A DNA stretch of 33,945 bases, from the NCBI GenBank assembly GCA_024103215.1, contig JAGFIY010000065.1, positions 1 through 33,945 of the forward strand. Reading direction: 5' to 3'. Both the position numbers and the translations under genes were made by a program. Under the pieces are notes generated by a model, which was not told where the DNA came from, made no database searches, and was given only the letters and a program-made list of their open reading frames with translations. Each line of letters opens with the position of its first letter. Positions within the stretch are counted from its first letter, which is position 1. This stretch comes from Melioribacteraceae bacterium. Its GTDB lineage: Bacteria > Bacteroidota > Ignavibacteria > Ignavibacteriales > Melioribacteraceae. Shown piece by piece: positions 2,018-13,626 of the stretch.

Positions 2018-2491
2018 ATGAAAAAAATCCTAACACTATCTCTGGTTTTGTTTTTACTGCAAACAGGTTCAATAAATTATTTTGCTCAAGATACTGGTTT
2101 TGGCGCCGGACTTATGCTAGGTGAACCGACGGGATTAAGCGGAAAGTACTGGCTCGATAAAACAAATGCTATCGATTTTGGACTCGGCTTTGCAATTTTT
2201 GAAGATGCCGGCAGAATGACATTTCACGCGGATTATCTTTATCATAATTGGAATTTGGTCGAAACAAATTTTGTGATGCCAATTTATTACGGATTCGGCG
2301 CAAGGTTCAGATTTAGGGAAGGGCGGAGCGGAAGTTTCGGAATACGAGGTGTTCTCGGAGCAACACTTTTCCTAAAGGAAGAACCTGTTGACATATTTTT
2401 TGAAATTGCTCCTGCGTTCAGGCTTTTTCCGAACACGGCTTTGGATTTTGATATTGCCCTCGGCGGACGATATTATTTTGAGATTCATTAA
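2018..2491 (+). CDS. Small outer-membrane-type beta-barrel protein
   Basis: About 157 residues from the ATG at 2018. That start gives a clean signal peptide (MKKILTLSLVLFLLQTG... ending near YFAQD); an upstream in-frame ATG at 1979 would add a basic 13-residue tail and is less likely. The mature part alternates glycine and aromatic residues in strand-like stretches (GFGAGLMLGEPTGLSGKYWL, DFGLGFAIF, YYGFGARFRF) and ends in an aromatic-rich strand (GGRYYFEIH), as in small outer membrane barrels. No specific function is recognisable. The stop codon shares a TTAA with the stop of the convergent crtU-like gene. Confidence 0.72.
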   Translation: MKKILTLSLVLFLLQTGSINYFAQDTGFGAGLMLGEPTGLSGKYWLDKTNAIDFGLGFAIFEDAGRMTFHADYLYHNWNLVETNFVMPIYYGFGARFRFREGRSGSFGIRGVLGATLFLKEEPVDIFFEIAPAFRLFPNTALDFDIALGGRYYFEIH

Positions 2492-4002
2492 GCTAGTATT
2501 CCTTTTAGAGGAACCGAGTAAATTTTTTCCTGTTTAAGACCTTCTTTTTTGAAAATCTCGTTGACGCTGAACAAAGCCGAGGTTGCGGCTGCTTCCATTA
2601 GCATTGCCGGAGACTCAAGCTTTATCCAATCACCGGAAAAGTATAGATTTTCCACCTCGGTTTTAAAAGTCAGTCTATTTGAATTTAATCCTGTGTGAAA
2701 TGCTGTAAAATCATCTCGAAGCTGAAGATGCTCATAAATTATTTGTGCATCTTTCATTTCGGGAAAGAAGTGATAAAATTCTGTTAAAAGATTTTCACTT
2801 ACTTTGCTTACGCTTAAATTTTCATCGGGAACCGCATAAGAATGCAGTTCGTAAATCCCACCGTTGTTTTGTTCCGCCCATCTGCGGGAATCTTCTTCCA
2901 TTTCATGATAGATGGTTATTGAATCAAGCATTTTCAAGGCTTCGGTAAATATGAAAAAAGGATATTTCCCTTTGTGCCTTTTGTTAGTCCAAATTCTTAA
3001 GACAGAATATTTCTGTGATTGCTTTTGTTTCATAACTTTATCAAAAAACAAGGGATAATTTCGCTTAAAATAAGGCGAATTTTGAATTATGTTTTTAGTG
3101 CCTTTTATATCGGAAGAAAGAACGAGATAATCGTAAAGTCCACCGTTTACCACAAACTTCCCGTTTACTTTATCAATCGAGGAAATGTTAATTCCTGTTC
3201 TATAAGAGAATTTTTTCTCTTTTGTAAAATTGAGGAATGGATTTATAAAAGTTTTTTCGAAATCATCGTTTAGAACATCGTAAATAAGTCCGAGATCGTT
3301 GCTTAGAAAATAAAAATGAAAACTCTTCATCAACTCTGCCACAGAAATTAACTGAGGTTCAGCAAAAAATGCCCGAGAGAATGATTCAAAAATCAGCTGC
3401 AATTCTTTAGGCAGCTTTGCTTTTGAAGCAAACTGAAGAAAATTAACGTTATCCCATTTATCAAATGTCTTTACCTGATCGTACTTGACCATATCAAGCA
3501 TTTTGAAAGAAGCAGAACTTTTAAAGAAAGGCGAAAGAGGAAAAAACCCTCGCTTAATCATATCGAAAATATTCAAAATAGGAACGGTTGAGATATCCTT
3601 AAATCTGTAATGCTTGTGATCTTTTGTGATTATAAGATAATCCTCAAGAGGAATTAAATATTTGTGCGCATCAATTTTATGAAGATAATTGCGGAGATTA
3701 TAATACTGTTTAAAAAACCCGTGAAAGCCATGTTCAACATTAGTTATATAACCGTTGCTAAACTCAACTTTCCAACTTCCGATTTTGCCGCCGAGATAAT
3801 TTTCTTTTTCAAAAAGATTAACTTCAAATCCTCGTTCAACAAGATATGCTGAGGATACAAGTCCGGCAATTCCACCGCCGATTACGGCAACTTTAACCTT
3901 TTTGCTTAATTGATTTGGTCTGTTTTCATCGACTCTGCTAATTATTTGCTTATAACCGCCAAGACGATTTTCTATAATGCTATTGAATTTTGACTTCTTC
4001 AT
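2488..4002 (-). CDS. crtU: CrtU-type carotenoid desaturase/methyltransferase (aromatic ring synthase family)
   Basis: 504 residues. An N-terminal FAD Rossmann motif (VIGGGIAGL, around residues 40-48) follows a roughly 35-residue leader and leads into EKENYLGGKIGSW. The diagnostic stretch is EHGFHGFFKQYYNLR (residues 90-104), which matches the CrtU/CruE family; these enzymes desaturate the beta-ring of carotenes and shift a methyl group to give an aromatic phi or chi ring. The C-terminal LYFSGDWIKLESPAMLMEAA is the FAD-dependent desaturase tail, ending YSVPLKGILA. It is the last gene of the carotenoid operon, 29 bp after the Rieske oxygenase gene. Phi versus chi specificity cannot be read from sequence alone. 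An alternative is a CrtU-like desaturase with another carotenoid substrate. Confidence 0.82.
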   Translation of the reverse strand: MKKSKFNSIIENRLGGYKQIISRVDENRPNQLSKKVKVAVIGGGIAGLVSSAYLVERGFEVNLFEKENYLGGKIGSWKVEFSNGYITNVEHGFHGFFKQYYNLRNYLHKIDAHKYLIPLEDYLIITKDHKHYRFKDISTVPILNIFDMIKRGFFPLSPFFKSSASFKMLDMVKYDQVKTFDKWDNVNFLQFASKAKLPKELQLIFESFSRAFFAEPQLISVAELMKSFHFYFLSNDLGLIYDVLNDDFEKTFINPFLNFTKEKKFSYRTGINISSIDKVNGKFVVNGGLYDYLVLSSDIKGTKNIIQNSPYFKRNYPLFFDKVMKQKQSQKYSVLRIWTNKRHKGKYPFFIFTEALKMLDSITIYHEMEEDSRRWAEQNNGGIYELHSYAVPDENLSVSKVSENLLTEFYHFFPEMKDAQIIYEHLQLRDDFTAFHTGLNSNRLTFKTEVENLYFSGDWIKLESPAMLMEAAATSALFSVNEIFKKEGLKQEKIYSVPLKGILA

Positions 4003-4031: not shown

Positions 4032-5024
4032 TCACTCGCCTCTCAGTTTGCTTCGCCAGAACTTTCTAAACGCAAGCGAAACCTCGTCGCCTTTCACGCT
4101 TACTTCGTGAATTTCGTCTTTCATTTTGTTGTAGTGTTTCTTTTGAGATACCAGAAACTGAATGTCCTCTTTCACAATCGTATCCGATTTTTTTGCCATA
4201 AACTTTTTAGCGAACAATGGAAACTTTGGAAATATATTCTGCCACAAAGTTATCTGAGTCATGCTTACATGTGAATCATCGACTTGATAAACATGTTCAA
4301 GAATCAAAAGCACTCTTTTATTAAATCGTGTTTCGAGCCGGGAGATATTCGGGAAATAAAATCTGTAATTAACATCGTGATGATCATGGCTGCCGAAGTA
4401 AATTTTTTCTCCGATATTTCCTTTGTTTGATCGTTTGTAAGAACCTTTGATTCCGTCCTCCAGAAAATCAATATGAAATTCAGCCGGAAATTCTTCTATC
4501 TGACCGAGAAGTTGTTTTATTGAATCACGGTGAGTAAAGGCAATATGATAAGGATCAATTAGACTTTCGGCTGTGGATTCAAGATCAGCCTCAAAAATAT
4601 ATTCCTTGTAAGTAAATGGCCAATCTTTCATTTCGGGAATATCTGTCGGCGAATAATTTTCAGCTTCATCGGGATTACCGGCAAAAAGCCAGACCCAATT
4701 GTTGTAGTCTTTAGCAGCATATTTTTTTATGGCAGCTTTAGGTGGAATTTTATTATCGGGTAGCTGCGAAGGGATTAAAACACATTGACCGCTCTTATCG
4801 TATTCCCAGCCGTGATAACCGCACACCGGCCTATCGTTCTTCAAATATCCCAACGAAAGATTCACGTTTCTGTGGCAGCATCTGTCCTCAAGCGCAATTG
4901 GATTGCCTTCCTTATCTCTGAATAAAATGATTTCCTCACTCAAAATTTTGAAGGTTCTCATTTTGTTGTCTAAATCTGAGGAGGGACAGACTAGATACCA
5001 ATTATTTTTTAAAACTTCGCTCAT
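4032..5024 (-). CDS. Rieske non-heme iron oxygenase (alpha subunit), probable carotenoid-modifying
   Basis: 330 residues, starting MSEVLKNNWYLVCPSSDL as in many ring-hydroxylating oxygenases. The Rieske [2Fe-2S] ligands are C49-x-H51 and C68-x2-H71. The mononuclear iron site is ESLIDPYHIAFTH (D157, H160, H165), with D287 in VKEDIQFLVSQ as the likely carboxylate ligand. Both centres look intact, so this should be a functional oxygenase that needs a separate reductase; none is seen nearby. It sits between crtYcd (23-bp overlap) and crtU in an otherwise carotenoid-only stretch, so the substrate is most likely a carotenoid ring or its methyl group (hydroxylation or further oxidation). That substrate is inferred only from position. 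The overlap suggests translational coupling. Confidence 0.85.
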   Translation of the reverse strand: MSEVLKNNWYLVCPSSDLDNKMRTFKILSEEIILFRDKEGNPIALEDRCCHRNVNLSLGYLKNDRPVCGYHGWEYDKSGQCVLIPSQLPDNKIPPKAAIKKYAAKDYNNWVWLFAGNPDEAENYSPTDIPEMKDWPFTYKEYIFEADLESTAESLIDPYHIAFTHRDSIKQLLGQIEEFPAEFHIDFLEDGIKGSYKRSNKGNIGEKIYFGSHDHHDVNYRFYFPNISRLETRFNKRVLLILEHVYQVDDSHVSMTQITLWQNIFPKFPLFAKKFMAKKSDTIVKEDIQFLVSQKKHYNKMKDEIHEVSVKGDEVSLAFRKFWRSKLRGE

Positions 5025-5694
5025 TTTTACCTTTTTCTAATTTTATAAATATCGATGTAGCAATAAACAAAAGGGAAAAGCCGAAGAGGAAATCTTCAAT
5101 AGGAACTGTCAAAATTCTAAAATCCAATTGATAAATTGGATCGTATGTAACCACAGGTCTCCATGTCAAATAACCGTTGAATAATATTGTAAAAACAGTA
5201 ACGAGCAATAAGTAATAATAGAAATTCTTGCTAAGGAATAGTCCGGTTCGCAAAAATTTATCAACCAAAAACATAATGCCCGATGAAAGCATCACCAGAG
5301 CCGTGTATTCTTTGTTTATTGTAAAAAAATAAACAGCAGCGGCAAACAAAGGAATCGGTAGAATATACAAAATCCTTAAATTCTCAATTTCTTTATCGGT
5401 GTTGAATCTGTTAATCATTTCCCAAGTAAACAAACAGGCATAGGGAACAGAAATGAAAAACATAATCTCTTCAAACGGAAGATTTAAAATTCGAAATCCC
5501 AAAGTATAATCGCTGCTGAAAAACCAATGACGACCGGTTACTGCGGCATCCCAAATTAAAAACGGAATAAGAGGAATTGATAAGGATATCAAAGCCGATT
5601 TTGCTTTATCTAAAAAATAGAACCGTTTTATTGATCCAAAAATAACAGGACCAAAAATCACAATTAGATTGAAAAGTAAATATTCGTATTTCAC
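5002..5694 (-). CDS. crtYcd: Lycopene cyclase, fused CrtYc-CrtYd (CarR-like) type
   Basis: 230 residues, mostly hydrophobic with about six to seven membrane spans and two repeats of the lycopene cyclase domain. Each repeat carries the family PxE(E/D) motif: PFEE at residues 73-76 in NLPFEEIMFF and PIED at 198-201 in TVPIEDFLFGF. The WDAAVTGRHWFFS and LTWRPVVTYDP segments occupy equivalent places before each motif. In actinobacteria and myxobacteria the two halves are often separate proteins; here they are one chain. It should convert lycopene to gamma- or beta-carotene in the membrane. The start is GTG at 5694, one base after the crtB stop, and the 3' end overlaps the Rieske gene by 23 bp. 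Product range (one or both ends cyclised) is not decidable from sequence. Confidence 0.9.
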   Translation of the reverse strand: MKYEYLLFNLIVIFGPVIFGSIKRFYFLDKAKSALISLSIPLIPFLIWDAAVTGRHWFFSSDYTLGFRILNLPFEEIMFFISVPYACLFTWEMINRFNTDKEIENLRILYILPIPLFAAAVYFFTINKEYTALVMLSSGIMFLVDKFLRTGLFLSKNFYYYLLLVTVFTILFNGYLTWRPVVTYDPIYQLDFRILTVPIEDFLFGFSLLFIATSIFIKLEKGKNERSFKK

Positions 5695-5695
5695 T

Positions 5696-6547
5696 TTATG
5701 TTAATCTCAGAACTTTTACTTCAATAACAGATTTTAAGAGAAGCACCAATTTTTGAATGTTCGAAACGCGCACACGTCTTTTCATTAATTCTTTGACGTC
5801 CAGCCTTTTAATTTTTTTGAATAATATAAGGTAATACAAATATGCAGAATAAACTCCAATCTTAACTCCGATTGGAAGTTTTCTTATTCCTTTCAGCGCT
5901 TCGGCGAATTCTTCTTCGATTTCGTTTTCAAGTTTTTGTTTGTTAATATTATCTATGAACTCGTTATGATGAACATCCGGCAGATAAATTCTTCCTCTTT
6001 CGCTTAAATCGCTTTTTATATCCCGCAGAAAATTTACCTTTTGAAAAGCGGATCCCAGCATTCTTGCCGGGTGAACCAACTCATCATATCTCTGTTGATT
6101 GCCTCCGGCAAAAACTTTTAAGCACATCAATCCAACAACTTCGGCAGAGCCATGAATATATTCATCATAATCATTTCTTTCATAAGAATTTTCGTAAAGA
6201 TCCATTTCCATACTTTTTAGAAATGATTCAACTAACTTAATATCAATATTATATTCGCGAACAACAGCAGCAAAAGAATTTAAAATCGGATTTGTTGAAA
6301 TACCTTCTTCGATAGCAGCATAAGTATCACGGCTAAAATCATTAAGAAGTTTTTTCTTATCATAACCATAGAACGTATCTACAATTTCGTCCGCAATCCG
6401 TACAAATCCGTAAACCGCATAAATTGGATCTCTGTATTCGGTAGAGAATGCATTTATTCCCCAACCGAACGATGTGCTGTAAGCATGAGTAATATCCTTA
6501 CTCAACTTATAACTTAATTTATTATAATCTTGTAAATTCATTTTCAA
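5696..6547 (-). CDS. crtB: Phytoene synthase
   Basis: 283 residues of squalene/phytoene synthase type. Both aspartate-rich diphosphate-binding motifs are present: RIADEIVD (D53-x3-D57) and NFLRDIKSDLSERGRIYLPD (D176-x3-D180). The AYSTSFGWG segment near residue 22 is typical of the family. It condenses two geranylgeranyl diphosphates to phytoene, the first committed carotenoid step. Either the first Met (6547) or M3 (6541) could initiate; both overlap the end of crtI by about 20-26 bp, so translation is probably coupled. No crtE (GGPP synthase) is seen in the window, so GGPP must come from elsewhere. Confidence 0.95.
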   Translation of the reverse strand: MKMNLQDYNKLSYKLSKDITHAYSTSFGWGINAFSTEYRDPIYAVYGFVRIADEIVDTFYGYDKKKLLNDFSRDTYAAIEEGISTNPILNSFAAVVREYNIDIKLVESFLKSMEMDLYENSYERNDYDEYIHGSAEVVGLMCLKVFAGGNQQRYDELVHPARMLGSAFQKVNFLRDIKSDLSERGRIYLPDVHHNEFIDNINKQKLENEIEEEFAEALKGIRKLPIGVKIGVYSAYLYYLILFKKIKRLDVKELMKRRVRVSNIQKLVLLLKSVIEVKVLRLT

Positions 6548-8000
6548 TCCTTTCAGTTACTAATTTAGAACCGATTACTACCATTGGAAGACCGGTGCCG
6601 GGAGTTGTTGAAGCCCCGACATAGAAAAGGTTTTTAAATTTTTCATCAAAATTTTGTGGACGAAAAGCACCGACTTGATTCAAGTCGTGAGCCAGCCCTA
6701 ACCCCGAACCTTTATAAAGATTAAATTTTTGCTGCCAATCAATAGGTGTGAGCACTGTTTTTGTCAAAGTGTTTGCTTCTAAATCAACCCCGATTCGTGA
6801 TGAAAGATCATTGATGATCTGCGCCGCTAATTCATCTTTATCGCGCCAATCCGTTTTGTATCTTAAGTCCGGAACAGGGCAGAGGATAAATAAATTCTCA
6901 CATCCTTCCGGGGCGCACGTTTTATCGGTTGCCGAAGACATATTTACATAGTAATAAGGTTTTTGCGGAGAAACCGATGAAGTAAAAATTGTATCAGCAT
7001 ATTCTTTAAAGTTGCTTCCTAAGAAGTAATTATGATGAATTAGATTATTTATTTTTCCTTTTACGCCGAGATAAATTGTAAACGGAGAAAGCGTCCAATG
7101 AAGCTTATCCAATCTGGATTCCGAAAACTTTTCTCTTCCCAAAATTTTACCTCTGAACGATGCGGCATCCGAATTTGAAATAAAAATATCTGCTTGATGA
7201 ACGTTCCCTCGACTGTCAATTGCCCCGGTTACATCCTCCCCTTCGTAATTCAATTGAACTATTTCAGAATCAAATACAAATTCTACGTTCCTTGATTTTA
7301 GGATGTTCACTATTTCTTCGGTGATTTTGTACATTCCGCCTTCAACTGCCCAGTAGCCGTCGTTTTCGAGCTCGGTATAATTCAATATTGAATAAATCGA
7401 AGGAGTTTGAAAAGGTGTTGAACCCAAAAAGAATGCGACCAGAGAAAAAATTATTTTCACTTCGTCGGATTGAAAATTTTTATCAAGTTCTTTCCACATC
7501 GATTTGAACAGATAAGGAATATGCTTGAAAGGAACGCCGGTTAGTTTTAACAAATATTCAAGCTTGTTATTAAAATTTGTTTTTATAACCTTATCGTTTG
7601 TATCGTTATAAAATTCTCTTGCTCTTCCCAGATATTTTTGAATCTTTTGCATTAATTCAGGTTCAACAGATTCAAACTCCTTCTGCAGCTCTGCGAGGTT
7701 TTTATATATTTTATAAGGTTCTTGCCTGTTTTCGAAAAACACTTGATAAATAGGTTCGAGCGGCTTAAGCAAGAGGGGATTTTTCACGCCCCCGTCCGAA
7801 AATAACTCATCAAACTCGTAAGACATGCTCATAAACGAGGGACCCAAATCAAATTTGAATCCCTCTTTTTCCATAGTGTTCAATCTTCCACCAGGGGTGG
7901 AGTATTTCTCGATTATCTTAACATCATAACCTCTGTTTGAAAGACGCAGAGCGGTTGCTAAACCGCCCAACCCCGAACCTATTATTATGACTTTTTTCAA
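6522..8000 (-). CDS. crtI: Phytoene desaturase (CrtI family)
   Basis: 492 residues. The N-terminal FAD motif is VIIIGSGLGGLATALRLSNR, followed by EKYSTPGGRLNTMEKEGFKFDLGPSF, which matches CrtI proteins. The C-terminal NLFYVGASTTPGTGLPMVV is the CrtI hallmark (family form GASTHPGTGVPMV). It is expected to desaturate phytoene to lycopene at the membrane using FAD. Its neighbours are the fasciclin gene upstream (28-bp gap) and crtB overlapping downstream. The number of desaturation steps cannot be read directly, but the downstream lycopene cyclase implies lycopene. No second CrtI-type (CrtD or ketolase) copy is present in the window. Confidence 0.94.
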   Translation of the reverse strand: MKKVIIIGSGLGGLATALRLSNRGYDVKIIEKYSTPGGRLNTMEKEGFKFDLGPSFMSMSYEFDELFSDGGVKNPLLLKPLEPIYQVFFENRQEPYKIYKNLAELQKEFESVEPELMQKIQKYLGRAREFYNDTNDKVIKTNFNNKLEYLLKLTGVPFKHIPYLFKSMWKELDKNFQSDEVKIIFSLVAFFLGSTPFQTPSIYSILNYTELENDGYWAVEGGMYKITEEIVNILKSRNVEFVFDSEIVQLNYEGEDVTGAIDSRGNVHQADIFISNSDAASFRGKILGREKFSESRLDKLHWTLSPFTIYLGVKGKINNLIHHNYFLGSNFKEYADTIFTSSVSPQKPYYYVNMSSATDKTCAPEGCENLFILCPVPDLRYKTDWRDKDELAAQIINDLSSRIGVDLEANTLTKTVLTPIDWQQKFNLYKGSGLGLAHDLNQVGAFRPQNFDEKFKNLFYVGASTTPGTGLPMVVIGSKLVTERIENEFTRL

Positions 8001-8028: not shown

Positions 8029-8541
8029 TTACTTTTTTTCCGGAATCAGAACAGCATCAATTACATGAATAACACCGTTGGATGATACTACGTCAACAGC
8101 AATTACCTTTGAATCATTTATCATTACGCCGTTATCATCTGCTTTGATTTTCAACAAATCTCCCGAAACAGTAGATGCTTCGGTTAATGTAACTACGTCT
8201 GTTGACATTACTTTACCGGCAACTACATGATATAACAAAATACTCTTTAGTATCTCTGTATCTTTAAGAAGATTCTCGACCGTTCCTTCGGGAAGTTTTG
8301 CAAATGCTTCGTCCGTCGGAGCAAAAACTGTAAAAGGTCCTTCTTTCTGCAGTTCAGCATCTAAGCCTGTAGCCTGCAATGCAGCAGCGAGAGTTGTGAA
8401 ATTACCTGCTTCGACAGCAACTTCAACAATGTTTTTCTTGTTTTTTGTCTTATCATCTCCAGCGAATAGGTCGGATAACCCAAGTGAAAGAACTAAAATT
8501 AAGAAAAACGATACGTTTCTTACTGATTTATATAGTGTCAT
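8029..8541 (-). CDS. Fasciclin (FAS1) domain exported protein
   Basis: 170 residues. A signal peptide (basic start, then FFLILVLSLGLSDLFAG) precedes one FAS1 domain. Diagnostic features are NFTTLAAALQATGL, GPFTVFAPTDEAFAKLP, LLYHVVAGKVMS and the terminal NGVIHVIDAVLIP. FAS1 domains mediate adhesion or surface interactions and act outside the cytoplasm. A strong Shine-Dalgarno (AAAGGAG) precedes the ATG, and the gene overlaps the end of the SRPBCC gene by 14 bp, so it is part of the same transcript. Its presence directly before crtI suggests that an extracytoplasmic protein is made together with the pigment; its exact role is unknown. Confidence 0.9.
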   Translation of the reverse strand: MTLYKSVRNVSFFLILVLSLGLSDLFAGDDKTKNKKNIVEVAVEAGNFTTLAAALQATGLDAELQKEGPFTVFAPTDEAFAKLPEGTVENLLKDTEILKSILLYHVVAGKVMSTDVVTLTEASTVSGDLLKIKADDNGVMINDSKVIAVDVVSSNGVIHVIDAVLIPEKK

Positions 8542-9001
8542 TTTGTACTCCTTTTGTATTGAATAATTGATTTATTTTGTTTTCTCTAAAGTCGAATATT
8601 GATTTCAAATTTTTTCTAACATAGATGTTGTTAATTAGGACCCCGATTGGACCGCCATACAATTTATAGTCAATATTATCGGTGATCTTTGTTTTATCCC
8701 CTTCAGTTTCAAATAAGTGTGTATGATGCCAATATTTATAGGGACCGTTCTTCTGAACATCAACAAACTTATAAGGCGGATCATAATCGGTAATAATCGT
8801 TTTCCACTTCAAAGGAACACTGAAAAGGTTAATTCTATAATCAAACTCTGCGTCTTTTTTCATTATAAGAGGTCTTGGAGTAAGAATCTCAAATTTCATC
8901 CAATCCGGAGTAATTACGCCGAGGTTTTCGGGGTTTTCGAAAAACTCGAAAACCTCATTTAAGTTTGCATCAACAATTTGTTCCATGAAGATGTTAAACA
9001 T
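8528..9001 (-). CDS. SRPBCC-fold (START/polyketide-cyclase-like) ligand-binding protein
   Basis: 157 residues with no signal peptide. The order MFNIFMEQIVDANLNEVFEFF, NPENLGVITPDWMKFEI, FDYRINLFSVPLKWKTIITDYDPP, WHHTHLFETEGDKTKITDNIDYKL matches the SRPBCC superfamily (helix-grip fold with a hydrophobic cavity). Relatives bind or act on hydrophobic ligands; a carotenoid or precursor is a plausible but untested ligand here. It lies 5 bp after the DUF4397 stop and overlaps the fasciclin start, so it is firmly within the operon. M6 is an alternative start. No catalytic residues are obvious. Confidence 0.82.
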   Translation of the reverse strand: MFNIFMEQIVDANLNEVFEFFENPENLGVITPDWMKFEILTPRPLIMKKDAEFDYRINLFSVPLKWKTIITDYDPPYKFVDVQKNGPYKYWHHTHLFETEGDKTKITDNIDYKLYGGPIGVLINNIYVRKNLKSIFDFRENKINQLFNTKGVQNDTI

Positions 9002-9006
9002 TGTTT

Positions 9007-10329
9007 TTATAATCCTAGTACTTCGTTGTTGATAATAATTTGAGCACCTAAAGCTTGATCTCCTGTACCATTGACAAAGCCTTTTGCAAAAACTGTGTAG
9101 ATATCTTGATTTTCAAGCATAACACCAGGGAGTTCAAGTACAACTGTTTCCGTTCCGGCAAGTCTTACCTGAAGATCATATGTTCCTGCATCAAACGGTG
9201 TAAACTCCGAGTAACTCTTGAAGGAAACATTTCCGAACAATACCATTCCGTTCGTCAATGTGATATCGACAGCCGGGGCATCAGGAGACAAGTGAATAAA
9301 TCTTAAATGTGCTTTTCCGCTAGCAGGCATTGCAAGATTATCTTCTAAAATTAAAGGTTCAATGCTGGAAACATTGTTAACTGCAAATACTGAGTAATCT
9401 TTGTAAGCATCGAACAAAATATCACCTTCGATTGCAGTAGTTGATGTTCCAGAAACATTAACTTTTATATTTTGAGTACCAGCATTTATGTTTAAATATC
9501 CTGTGTTGTTCGGAAAAGTCAATCCGGTTCCAACAACAGCATCATTTAGAAGTAGGTCGACTGCCGGGGCATTAGGACTTGCGTGGACTACTTTAACATT
9601 CGCGGTTGCTACTTCAAGATCAACAAATGATATACCCTGATTATTATCAACGTATGTTCTTACGTTAAATGGATAGGAATCATCACCGCTTAGTGTTCCT
9701 TGCGCCATAACCGTGTATATTCTTCCGGACATTAAAGGAGCATTGCCGAGAATCACAACTTCAGCGTTAGATCCCGCAGGTGTTACTGCCAAGTTATATG
9801 TTCCTTCAGGAACTTCGATATAATCTGCGATAGTTTTGAATTCTGCATTTCCGAACAATGTTGATCCCATACCGTTATTAACTTTAATATCGACTGCAGG
9901 AGCATCTGGTGCAGCATGTATAAAACGAACCTTTGCACTGCCGGAACTTATTCTGTCATCTTCTGAAATTATTGCTTCGATTGAAGTAAGATTATTAACC
10001 GCATATATAGTTAGCTCTTGATTTGCAATAATAGTAACTGTTGCAGAAATTACCGGTGTTGTGGTTCCGGCTGCAGAAACAATAATATTCTTTTCACCCT
10101 CTTCCAGTTCAGCGTAACCTGAACTTTCGCCGTAGCTTAAATTGCTGATTACCTGTGCATCATTTACCCATACATCCACGGCGGGCGCATCATAACTAGC
10201 ATGAATAACTCTCACTTGAGCTTTACCCAATTCACGGACTGGTGTATTTATTGTATCGTTATCATCAGCACAGCTGATAAAAAATGCTGCACTTAGAAAA
10301 ACAAGAATAAATTTTCTTAGTAGTTTCAT
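9007..10329 (-). CDS. DUF4397 repeat lipoprotein, first gene of the carotenoid operon
   Basis: 440 residues. A lipoprotein signal ends at the lipobox FISC (Cys20). Four related repeats follow, each opening with an (I/V)H-(A/L)-S/A-x-(D/N)APAVD core (VIHASYDAPAVD, FIHAAPDAPAVD, VVHASPNAPAVD, FIHLSPDAPAVD). They alternate in type: repeats 1 and 3 share YAVNN/FAVNN and a following EDD/EDN, while 2 and 4 share LFGN...F, EGTYNL/AGTYDL and IYTV(M/F)A. So it is a two-unit DUF4397 module duplicated once. It is probably an envelope protein of beta-sandwich type with unknown ligand. The start lies about 48 nt downstream of the predicted CarH-controlled start site and has an AAAGGA ribosome binding site. 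Confidence 0.88.
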   Translation of the reverse strand: MKLLRKFILVFLSAAFFISCADDNDTINTPVRELGKAQVRVIHASYDAPAVDVWVNDAQVISNLSYGESSGYAELEEGEKNIIVSAAGTTTPVISATVTIIANQELTIYAVNNLTSIEAIISEDDRISSGSAKVRFIHAAPDAPAVDIKVNNGMGSTLFGNAEFKTIADYIEVPEGTYNLAVTPAGSNAEVVILGNAPLMSGRIYTVMAQGTLSGDDSYPFNVRTYVDNNQGISFVDLEVATANVKVVHASPNAPAVDLLLNDAVVGTGLTFPNNTGYLNINAGTQNIKVNVSGTSTTAIEGDILFDAYKDYSVFAVNNVSSIEPLILEDNLAMPASGKAHLRFIHLSPDAPAVDITLTNGMVLFGNVSFKSYSEFTPFDAGTYDLQVRLAGTETVVLELPGVMLENQDIYTVFAKGFVNGTGDQALGAQIIINNEVLGL

Positions 10330-10361: not shown

Positions 10362-10412
10362 TGTCGAATTAATGTCTAGATCAAATATAGCTTATTGTCT
10401 AATGTTTGTCAA
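10362..10412 (-). promoter_or_regulatory. Predicted CarH-controlled promoter of the carotenoid operon with 11-bp-spaced half-sites
   Basis: On the minus strand TTGACA (10412-10407) is followed after 17 bp by TATATTTG (10389-10382), fitting both a sigma70-type promoter and the Bacteroidota TAnnTTTG form. The half-site TGACA in the -35 recurs as AGACA 11 bp on (10400-10396). A further pair, AGACA (10377-10373) and CGACA (10366-10362), also 11 bp apart, lies around and after the expected start site near 10377. Thermus CarH is known to bind 11-bp direct repeats overlapping a -35 element, so this arrangement suits repression in the dark. Binding is inferred. Confidence 0.72.
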
Positions 10413-10472
10413 GTCTTTTTGGATAATATTTTACCAATCGTCTTAAAACGTCTATTATTATGATCATATTGC

Positions 10473-10503
10473 TTGACAACAACTAGACAATTGCTTACAT
10501 TTG
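10473..10503 (+). promoter_or_regulatory. Predicted carH promoter with 11-bp direct-repeat operator (autoregulation)
   Basis: TTGACA (10473-10478), a 17-bp spacer and TACATTTG (10496-10503) form a promoter directed at carH. TGACA and AGACA are again 11 bp apart (10474-10478 and 10485-10489). CTTGACAA and TAGACAAT are identical in this promoter and in the opposite-strand crt promoter, so the two are mirror-image copies about 60 bp apart. The expected start site falls at or next to the ATG at 10508, which predicts a leaderless mRNA. Autorepression by CarH is the likely consequence. Confidence 0.72.
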
Positions 10504-10507
10504 AAAC

Positions 10508-11440
10508 ATGGAAAATGATTATAAATATCCGATAAAAGCTGTCTCTGAAATAACGGGACTTACCGTTCACGCAATTAGGGCATGGGAAAAAAGGTACAAT
10601 GCCGTTGAACCTGCGCGGACAGATACGAACAGAAGACTTTATTCCTCAAGAGATCTTGAGAAATTAACTCTTTTGAAAAAAGCGACTGAATACGGTCATA
10701 GTATAAGCGGAATAGCGTCACTTTCCGTAGAAGAATTAATGAAGCTTCTCGGAAAGAATCATGCTTTTGATGAAAAAGCCGGTTCGGTGAAACCTCAAAC
10801 AACATCAAACGGTGAGACAAAAATTCAGCGGTTTGTCGAAGCAATGAATAATTACGACGGGAAGAGATTGGAAGAACTTCTCCATCACGCCTCGGTTGAA
10901 TACAGCAGAACCAAACTTTTGGAAAATTTGATCACACCACTAATAATTACAATAGGTGATATGTGGCATAAAGGAGAGATAAGAGTTTCACATGAACATT
11001 TTGCATCTTCAATAATCAGAAAATTTTTGTTGAACCTTCTTGAAACACAAAGCATTCCGGAAACCGCACCTAATATTGTAATATGCACACCAAAAGGACA
11101 GACACATGAATTAGGTGCGCTTGTGGTTGCAAATTTTGCCGCTAACGAGGGATGGAAAGTAACATACCTCGGAGCCGATCTCCCGATGGAAGATGTGGTT
11201 TCGGCAGCCGAGGAAACAAAAAGCCGCGTGATCTGTTTTTCGATTGTCTATCCTTCCGATGATATTTTCTTAATTAAGGAATTTGAAAGACTTGATCATA
11301 TTTGTCCGCCGGATATCACAATAATTGCTGGTGGCGCAAGTGTAGGAGGTTATAAAGAAATTCTGAAAAAGGTAGGCGCTATAATTATTGAAGATAATTC
11401 GGGACTTTCGGATAAGTTCAAATTACTCAGAAAATTCTAA
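10508..11440 (+). CDS. carH: CarH/LitR-type B12-dependent light-sensing MerR repressor
   Basis: 310 residues in three parts. A MerR winged-helix DNA-binding domain (YPIKAVSEITGLTVHAIRAW, then RRLYSSRDL; residues 7-75) is followed by a helical B12-binding cap (about 105-185) and a cobalamin-binding Rossmann domain (about 188-310). The cap carries W153-x9-E163-H164, the Wx9EH motif that senses the adenosyl group in CarH photoreceptors. The lower axial histidine is H200 in GQTHELG; the family form is (E/D)xHxxG, and here the first acidic residue is Gln198. GG275-276 is the expected nucleotide-tail glycine pair. In known CarH proteins AdoCbl-bound tetramers repress carotenoid genes in the dark and light breaks them up. 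It is divergent from the crt operon with matching operators at both promoters. Confidence 0.92.
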   Translation: MENDYKYPIKAVSEITGLTVHAIRAWEKRYNAVEPARTDTNRRLYSSRDLEKLTLLKKATEYGHSISGIASLSVEELMKLLGKNHAFDEKAGSVKPQTTSNGETKIQRFVEAMNNYDGKRLEELLHHASVEYSRTKLLENLITPLIITIGDMWHKGEIRVSHEHFASSIIRKFLLNLLETQSIPETAPNIVICTPKGQTHELGALVVANFAANEGWKVTYLGADLPMEDVVSAAEETKSRVICFSIVYPSDDIFLIKEFERLDHICPPDITIIAGGASVGGYKEILKKVGAIIIEDNSGLSDKFKLLRKF

Positions 11441-12285: not shown

Positions 12286-13626
12286 TTAATCTTGATCAAA
12301 TTTTTTAATGTATTTCGCAACATCGAACTTGCGTTTGCAGCCGTTGTAATTCATATATCTAATTTTACCGAAAATGGGTCGTTCAGCCCACGCTCTGTCA
12401 TGTACTCCGCCGATTGACCAAGCAATCCCTGTATATCCGTTCGGATCACGACCGTCAAGTTCGTATTTATCGTTAAGCTTAATAGCTGTTTCCATTGCTT
12501 CTTCGGGGGAATTTGACCATTCCAAAATTTTCTTTCCCCAGTACATTCGCATATAACCGTGCATCTTACCCGTTGTTATCATTTCGGTTTGTGCTGCATT
12601 CCACAGATTGTCGTGTGTTTCTGCGTTTTCAAATTGTTTAAAAGAATATAAATATTCTCGCTTATCCGCTCTGTGGTCATACAATGTTTTTTTTGCCCAA
12701 TCATGAAATCCTTCGAAAGAATCGTATTTGTTATTATAGAAACAAAAATTATCTGCAAGCTCTCTTCGAATTATTAACTCTTCGAGAAAAGCTTTTCTGT
12801 TTTCATTATTAATTCCTAAGCGACTTATAACCAAAGCAATCCGCTGAGCGGAGATTTGCCCGAAGTGAAGGAATGGAGAAAGATTTGATAATGCATCATT
12901 ATTGGGATCATTTCTATTTGACGCATACTTTACAATTTTATTGTTGATAAAAGTTTCAAGCATTTTGTGGGCGGACGTCTCCCCCGGCGTTATCCAATCG
13001 ACGACACCAACCGAATAGTTAACTTTTAATGATCTATAAATTTTATCCCAATCACAGCTCGGAAAGTTTTTGGTTTTTTCCATCTTTTCAATTATCGGAA
13101 ATTCATCTAGAAATTCGGGAAGCAGTTTTGTGATTTTAGGACGAATAGTATAAGCAGCAAACTCAAGTTTGTTTGAAGCAGTCCAGACAGGAACTATATT
13201 GTGTGCATCAACTTCATAAAAACTGCATGTTATGTTTTTCTTTATTTCTTCTTTCCAAGTTCTTGTGATTTTTAAAGGATTCATATCAGTAAAAAGGAAG
13301 GCACAATTATTTTTATTAACAAAATCGGAAATACTTTTGCCGGGATCACCTTGAAGAAGGATGAAAGGAATATTGTATTGTGTTAAGTTTTTCTCGACTT
13401 CCTTAAGACCGTTTAGCAAAAAATCATATTGTCTTATTCCTGCCTCAAGAAAATCTGTAACAAGATTAAAAATTACAACAAGGTTATAACCTTTTGAAAT
13501 CGCAAACTTCTGTGCAGCAATTAATGCCCAGTTATCGTTTGTGCGCTGATCTCGCTGCATCCAATAAATTACGGGTCCAACACCTTCAGTGCCGTCTTTT
13601 ATTTTTCTGATTCTTTTTTTATTCAT
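12286..13626 (-). CDS. phrB: Class II CPD photolyase
   Basis: 446 residues. The N-terminus VIYWMQRDQRTNDNWAL is the class II photolyase signature (YWMxRDQRxxDNWAL). Further matches are VDAHNIVPVWTASNKLEFAA, HGYMRMYWGKKILEW, LNDKYELDGRDPNGYTGIAWSIGG and AERPIFGKIRYMNYNGCKRKFDV. It is not of class I or DASH type. The enzyme uses FADH- and blue/near-UV light to reverse cyclobutane pyrimidine dimers. Its position beside the CarH and carotenoid genes fits a light-damage response, but I see no CarH-type half-site pair in the 107 bp upstream, so its regulation may be separate. It is divergent from the S46 peptidase gene and followed by a DMT permease. Confidence 0.94.
   Translation of the reverse strand: MNKKRIRKIKDGTEGVGPVIYWMQRDQRTNDNWALIAAQKFAISKGYNLVVIFNLVTDFLEAGIRQYDFLLNGLKEVEKNLTQYNIPFILLQGDPGKSISDFVNKNNCAFLFTDMNPLKITRTWKEEIKKNITCSFYEVDAHNIVPVWTASNKLEFAAYTIRPKITKLLPEFLDEFPIIEKMEKTKNFPSCDWDKIYRSLKVNYSVGVVDWITPGETSAHKMLETFINNKIVKYASNRNDPNNDALSNLSPFLHFGQISAQRIALVISRLGINNENRKAFLEELIIRRELADNFCFYNNKYDSFEGFHDWAKKTLYDHRADKREYLYSFKQFENAETHDNLWNAAQTEMITTGKMHGYMRMYWGKKILEWSNSPEEAMETAIKLNDKYELDGRDPNGYTGIAWSIGGVHDRAWAERPIFGKIRYMNYNGCKRKFDVAKYIKKFDQD

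Follow-up and report, generated by a model that had tools for sequence, protein, structure and literature searches.

The analysed window, i.e. the whole stretch of 33,945 nucleotides of the Melioribacteraceae contig, contains a carH gene (10508–11440, + strand) that encodes a protein with MerR and B12-binding domains. Its ATG at 10508 is separated by a gap of 178 bases from the start of a divergent gene for a DUF4397 lipoprotein (10329, − strand). This lipoprotein gene (9007–10329) is the first of eight genes on the − strand, which overlap or lie at most 30 bp apart and are presumably co-transcribed as one operon. It is followed by the genes for an SRPBCC/polyketide-cyclase-like protein (8528–9001; a weak Pfam match below the cut-off), a fasciclin (FAS1) domain protein (8029–8541; the sole one in the genome), a CrtI-like phytoene desaturase of the amino-oxidase family (6522–8000), named according to its family and its neighbours, the phytoene/squalene synthase CrtB (5696–6547), a lycopene cyclase (5002–5694), a Rieske oxygenase (4032–5024) and a FAD-dependent enzyme of the amine-oxidase family (2488–4002). 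The first-pass annotation had assigned a crt promoter to this side of the gap. While crtI and crtB do lie further along the same operon, the adjoining gene encodes the DUF4397 lipoprotein and is not a crt gene, and since the operon starts with the DUF4397, SRPBCC and fasciclin genes before crtI and crtB, the promoter is referred to here as that of the DUF4397-led operon.

The protein encoded by carH contains the domains PF13411 (MerR_1), PF02607 (B12-binding_2) and PF02310 (B12-binding), all above the Pfam cut-off, and thus has the MerR, four-helix and Rossmann cobalamin domains expected of class I CarH/LitR proteins. It matches the structures of Thermus thermophilus CarH (3whp and 5c8d) over its full length, and the positions aligned with W131, H132, E141, H142 and H177 of the Thermus protein are all kept. 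These include the Wx9EH motif of class I CarH/LitR (W131, E141 and H142 in Thermus) and the HxxG motif of the lower-axial histidine (H177 in Thermus), with which H200 and G203 are aligned in the window CarH. Two positions before H177, Thermus CarH has a glutamate; the window CarH has a glutamine there, as do 65 of the 68 aligned homologues, which means that an acidic residue at this position is not diagnostic. The equivalent of H132, the histidine that caps the cobalt after photolysis in Thermus, is present in just eight of the 68 aligned homologues, the window CarH included. The same genome also encodes a cobalamin adenosyltransferase, and besides carH it contains only two MerR_1 genes (open frames of 158 and 151 amino acids), both elsewhere. 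By its domains and motifs the protein is a class I CarH/LitR, for which AdoCbl binding, oligomers in the dark and dissociation in the light are predicted.

The + strand of the gap carries CTTGACAACAACTAGACAATTGCTTACATTTG, with its 3' end at 10503, in the order C-TTGACA (10473–10478)-N5-TAGACA (10484–10489)-AT-N4-TACATTTG (10496–10503), followed by AAAC and the carH ATG. TTGACA is both the −35 element and the first direct repeat (DR1) of the putative carH-side operator, TAGACA within the spacer is the second (DR2), 11 bp from DR1, and TACATTTG represents the −10/−7 element according to the consensus TAnnTTTG (PMC6847099). The carH-side operator therefore consists of two clean repeats, as the flanking 11-bp positions do not match TnnACA. 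The − strand carries CTTGACAAACATTAGACAATAAGCTATATTTG, with its 3' end at 10382, in the order C-TTGACA (10412–10407)-N5-TAGACA (10401–10396)-AT-N4-TATATTTG (10389–10382), with DR1 again serving as the −35 element, DR2 in the spacer and TATATTTG as the −10/−7 element, which places the predicted +1 near 10377. At the sequence level, TACATTTG and TATATTTG both match the TAnnTTTG-type −7 element of Bacteroidota (sigma-ABfr). The promoter layout that the first-pass annotation had described for both strands (TTGACA, a 17-bp spacer and TA(C/T)ATTTG), together with the 11-bp step between the TTGACA and TAGACA hexamers, is thus confirmed by the sequence. A further pair on the − strand, TAGACA-N5-TCGACA (10378–10362), was absent from that annotation: DR3 (TAGACA, 10373–10378) lies 23 bp after DR2 over the predicted −1 to +5, and DR4 (TCGACA, 10362–10367) lies 11 bp after DR3 over the predicted +11 to +16. 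The − side hence carries four repeats in two pairs, the second of which deviates from the 11-bp grid by 1 bp. For CarH, nnnnTnnACAn has been published as the direct repeat, with one repeat including the −35 element (PMC9304148); the repeats in the gap equal it and occur in direct orientation at 11 bp, and DR1 on either strand includes the −35 element; the earlier proposal that the −35 element and the spacer are parts of the operator holds in this respect. Operators bound by CarH with one or two full repeats have been reported (PMC9304148). It is highly probable that the gap contains two copies of a putative CarH operator on opposite strands, each fused to a promoter.

The first-pass annotation had also proposed conservation of the repeats beside carH orthologues as a test. 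For this comparison, genome contigs were scanned with a profile from an alignment centred on Ignavibacteria, and the 80 best matches were used; these carH loci are mostly from uncultured members of the Ignavibacteriota, KSB1, Poribacteria, Latescibacterota, Verrucomicrobiota, Gemmatimonadota, Acidobacteriota, Zixibacteria, Hydrogenedentota and others. The repeats were counted in 68 non-redundant upstream regions of 350 bp, including that of the window, from more than 10 phyla. TnnACA pairs at exactly 11 bp form the dominant distance peak with 93 occurrences, as opposed to 1.2 ± 1.1 expected from dinucleotide shuffles and 0.5 ± 0.7 from random windows of the same loci, which corresponds to an approximately 80-fold enrichment upstream of carH across phyla, so that the test was passed strongly. 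Pairs on both strands in diverging order were found at 14 of the 68 loci. At some loci, e.g. L056, L062, L064 and L081, no 11-bp pair was found in the 350 bp upstream, and the design is accordingly common but not universal. The strict full pattern (fixed N6, TAnATTTG) occurs among 79 family genomes twice in each of two carH genomes and once each in G043, G050 and G071, which makes it too narrow to track carH. The exact operator–promoter match in G050 (G050:C65:47572–47602, L027) lies in a family genome without a CarH match at E ≤ 1e-20.

In the 68 upstream regions, TnnACA repeats beyond the 11-bp pairs also show a periodic spacing, which extends to 75 bp, as though one face of the DNA had to be shared by the CarH blocks. 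Lesser distance peaks are located at 20–22, 30–31, 41–42, 51–53, 62–63 and 72–74 bp, corresponding to a period of about 10.25–10.5 bp. The phase is non-random when one gap is counted per neighbouring block (Rayleigh p ~1e-5, with the gaps of related Poribacteria not being fully independent), which indicates that the repeat blocks tend to share one helix face.

The position of the carH promoter relative to the coding sequence also recurs at other loci. Because of an in-frame TGA at 10502–10504, an earlier start of carH is excluded and the ATG at 10508 is the only possible one; the first base of TTGACA (10473) lies exactly 35 nt ahead of it. In F. johnsoniae, the last base of TAnnTTTG is at −5, with transcription starting 4 or 5 nt downstream of it (PMC6847099), and a distance of 4 nt would place +1 on A10508, with which the start codon begins. 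From this geometry, the carH mRNA should be leaderless, with its 5' end at the start codon. At 19 of the 29 loci with a forward pair, T(T/A)GACA of that pair is followed by an in-frame ATG or GTG at a distance of 33–38 nt, which has its mode at 35 (8 cases). The loci with this layout are spread across the CarH tree, on which the state changes 14 times, and L030, L031 and L043 show the same start-codon layout by eye, though they fall outside the strict regular expression. On plasmid pTT27 of T. thermophilus HB8 (L116, 3440–3490), TTGACA likewise lies 35 nt before the annotated carH ATG, implying that carH may be leaderless in this model system too.

Since conserved binding repeats lie on both promoters, one CarH sensor would repress both sides in the dark and release them in the light, a reading that we consider very likely on the basis of the sequence. 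Binding, repression, light release and start sites are predicted by analogy with the CarH biology summarised in PMC9304148. In the dark, oligomers of AdoCbl-bound CarH would occupy both arms by way of the 11-bp direct repeats, covering −35 to about −20 on the carH side and, on the operon side, the −35/spacer stretch together with the second pair at about −1 to +16. Bound CarH would keep RNA polymerase off both promoters, and shutting both would combine autorepression of carH with repression of the pathway. Light would break the Co–C bond of AdoCbl, whereupon CarH would fall off and both transcripts could start, with the released carH transcript beginning at AUG.

The four repeats of the − side as against two on the + side would also fit CarH binding mainly to the operon side, with the carH side being weak and subject to mild autoregulation, or with carH being expressed as a leadered transcript from another promoter; further promoter-like sites are indeed present upstream of carH, e.g. 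at 10430–10458. However, it is the carH-side layout that is better conserved, with a start 33–38 nt after the −35 repeat at 19 of 29 loci, and carH of Thermus has the same layout, which makes this explanation unlikely. A second question is whether the two promoters resemble each other only as good housekeeping promoters (TTGACA, 17 bp, TAnnTTTG) with incidental repeats in the spacer. The −35 and −10 elements alone do explain part of the similarity, but TAGACA at exactly 11 bp in the spacer is not a promoter element, and the enrichment of 11-bp pairs upstream of carH refutes this explanation in its general form. In addition, the genome has TTGACA-N5-TNGACA in a promoter context at no other place. 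Taken together, this makes the housekeeping explanation very improbable. The genome has a size of 3.2 Mb and is 99.88% complete, and the full pattern TTGACA-N5-TAGACAAT-N4-TAnATTTG with 21 specified bases has two exact matches in it, namely 10473–10503 on the + strand (carH) and 10412–10382 on the − strand (divergent operon), none at one or two mismatches and one at three, and the reversed pattern used as a control has no match in the 3.2 Mb. The looser TTGACA-N5-TNGACA has three matches in the genome, i.e. both gap sites and a third in antisense orientation, located at the beginning of an ORF that we take to be ribosomal L28-like from its translation; the third was rejected as an operator because of this position. 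The spacers of MerR activators typically measure 19–20 bp. That the regulator, as a member of the MerR family, might act as an activator untwisting a long spacer instead of a repressor is hardly credible, because the spacer here has 17 bp and direct repeats cover the −35 element as in repressor operators (PMC9304148), and a classical MerR activator site was rejected for these reasons.

The best 32-mer match between the two strands reaches 24 of 32 positions compared to 18.1 ± 1.0 (maximum 21) in 100 shuffles, and a repeat search recognised the mirror similarity as a 33-nt inverted repeat with 76% identity. TnnACA-N5-TnnACA occurs exactly three times across the whole window, each time inside the carH gap, and the promoter upstream of 13626, belonging to a photolyase gene near carH (12286–13626, − strand), contains no CarH repeats.

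The proposed repression of both promoters by one CarH can be placed in the context of the known systems. The gap between carH and crtB on Thermus pTT27 contains TGTACA-N5-TTGACA-N5-TATACA before carH. Both loci share 11-bp TnnACA direct repeats, one of which includes the −35 TTGACA while the following one falls in the spacer, the distance of 35 nt from TTGACA to the carH ATG, and a divergent carotenoid gene. However, Thermus has three tandem repeats in a single array, whereas in the window each strand has a separate array of its own (two repeats on the + strand, two plus two on the − strand), and crtB is directly divergent in Thermus as opposed to the DUF4397-led operon here. The parallel to Thermus CarH drawn by the first-pass annotation consequently applies to the 11-bp direct repeats including the −35 element, but not to the three tandem repeats, in place of which pairs are found on each side. 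Bacillus megaterium, whose CarH is tetrameric, also has tandem 11-bp repeats overlapping the −35 or −10 element according to its description, although its operators are described as four tandem repeats or three plus a pseudorepeat, unlike the window (PMC9304148). In the Myxococcales (M. xanthus, Cystobacter, Sorangiineae and Nannocystineae), the promoter TTGACA lies in one repeat as in the window, and degenerate repeats are tolerated in the CarH operators; those of Sorangiineae and Nannocystineae are expected to serve divergent promoters, as here (PMC9304148). The operators of one myxococcal genome differ from each other, whereas the two promoters of the window are near copies. Characterised CarH operators comprise three to four repeats or contain additional degenerate ones, in contrast to the two clean repeats on the carH side of the window. 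The closest full match among the best 80 loci is Ignavibacteria bacterium IGN16 (L032/G034), which has a mirrored pair of the exact pattern and an ATG 35 nt after TTGACA, and whose divergent side encodes DUF4397, FAS1, SRPBCC, CrtI and CrtB as in the window. Its gene order differs in detail and the second block on its − side consists of three repeats; its CarH is only 47% identical to the window CarH and has K where Thermus has H132.

The genes neighbouring carH were identified by phmmer with the window proteins within 6 kb of carH at 67 other loci. FAS1 genes were found at 14, DUF4397 genes at 13 and either of them at 21 of the 67 loci, from many phyla, while chance would yield about 0.15 loci each, as roughly estimated from the gene densities with some 10 kb flanking each locus. 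Both families are rare, with usually zero or one FAS1 gene per genome (in 25 genomes, most of them chosen for FAS1 or DUF4397 near carH) and about one DUF4397 per genome, counted as genes. A Pfam spot check confirmed DUF4397 or fasciclin in nine divergent genes. CrtI or CrtB was detected in the same stretch at only three of the 21 DUF4397/FAS1 loci, where many of the 80 carH loci are on short contigs and crt genes were detected by single-sequence queries. Further divergent partners of carH are an IDI-like Nudix protein, sigma-70-family factors, fatty-acid desaturases and GTP cyclohydrolase I. Where a repeat pair lies on the reverse strand, the longest − strand ORF upstream of carH encodes a sigma-70-family factor at L055, L065, L071 and L088, which suggests that sigma factors may be under light control, and a fatty-acid desaturase at L038, L058 and L095.

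Nothing linking DUF4397 to light was found in the searchable literature, and the papers in it that mention both CarH and fasciclin concern unrelated subjects judging by their titles and abstracts. Among the papers searchable without subscription, none relevantly joins CarH with leaderless mRNA. Carotenoids are bound by AstaP, a FAS1 protein of algae, but not by a homologue from a cyanobacterium (PMC10147662), so that a carotenoid role of the FAS1 protein is only a guess. The operator itself is of a known kind, while the leaderless geometry and the link to DUF4397/fasciclin look new. The wider reading is that carH is leaderless in many phyla, with AUG at or beside +1 and the operator locked onto the −35 element and the spacer (Ignavibacteriota, KSB1, Latescibacterota, Hydrogenedentota, Acidobacteriota, Deinococcota and others), and that among the genes of the window operon DUF4397 and fasciclin are its top neighbours in many uncultured phyla, as secreted proteins with crt genes usually not detected within 6 kb. 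We regard this reading as evenly balanced between holding and failing.

For Ignavibacteriota, the two arms of the gap provide testable candidate operators of a B12-dependent control by light, and TnnACA pairs 11 bp apart, with the −35 element inside the operator and the ATG at +1, offer a rule that could be used across phyla. DUF4397 and bacterial fasciclin proteins would gain a regulatory context, namely light acting through CarH, and, if the wider reading is true, these surface proteins would belong to a general B12–light regulon, possibly with a function in carotenoid handling or adhesion.
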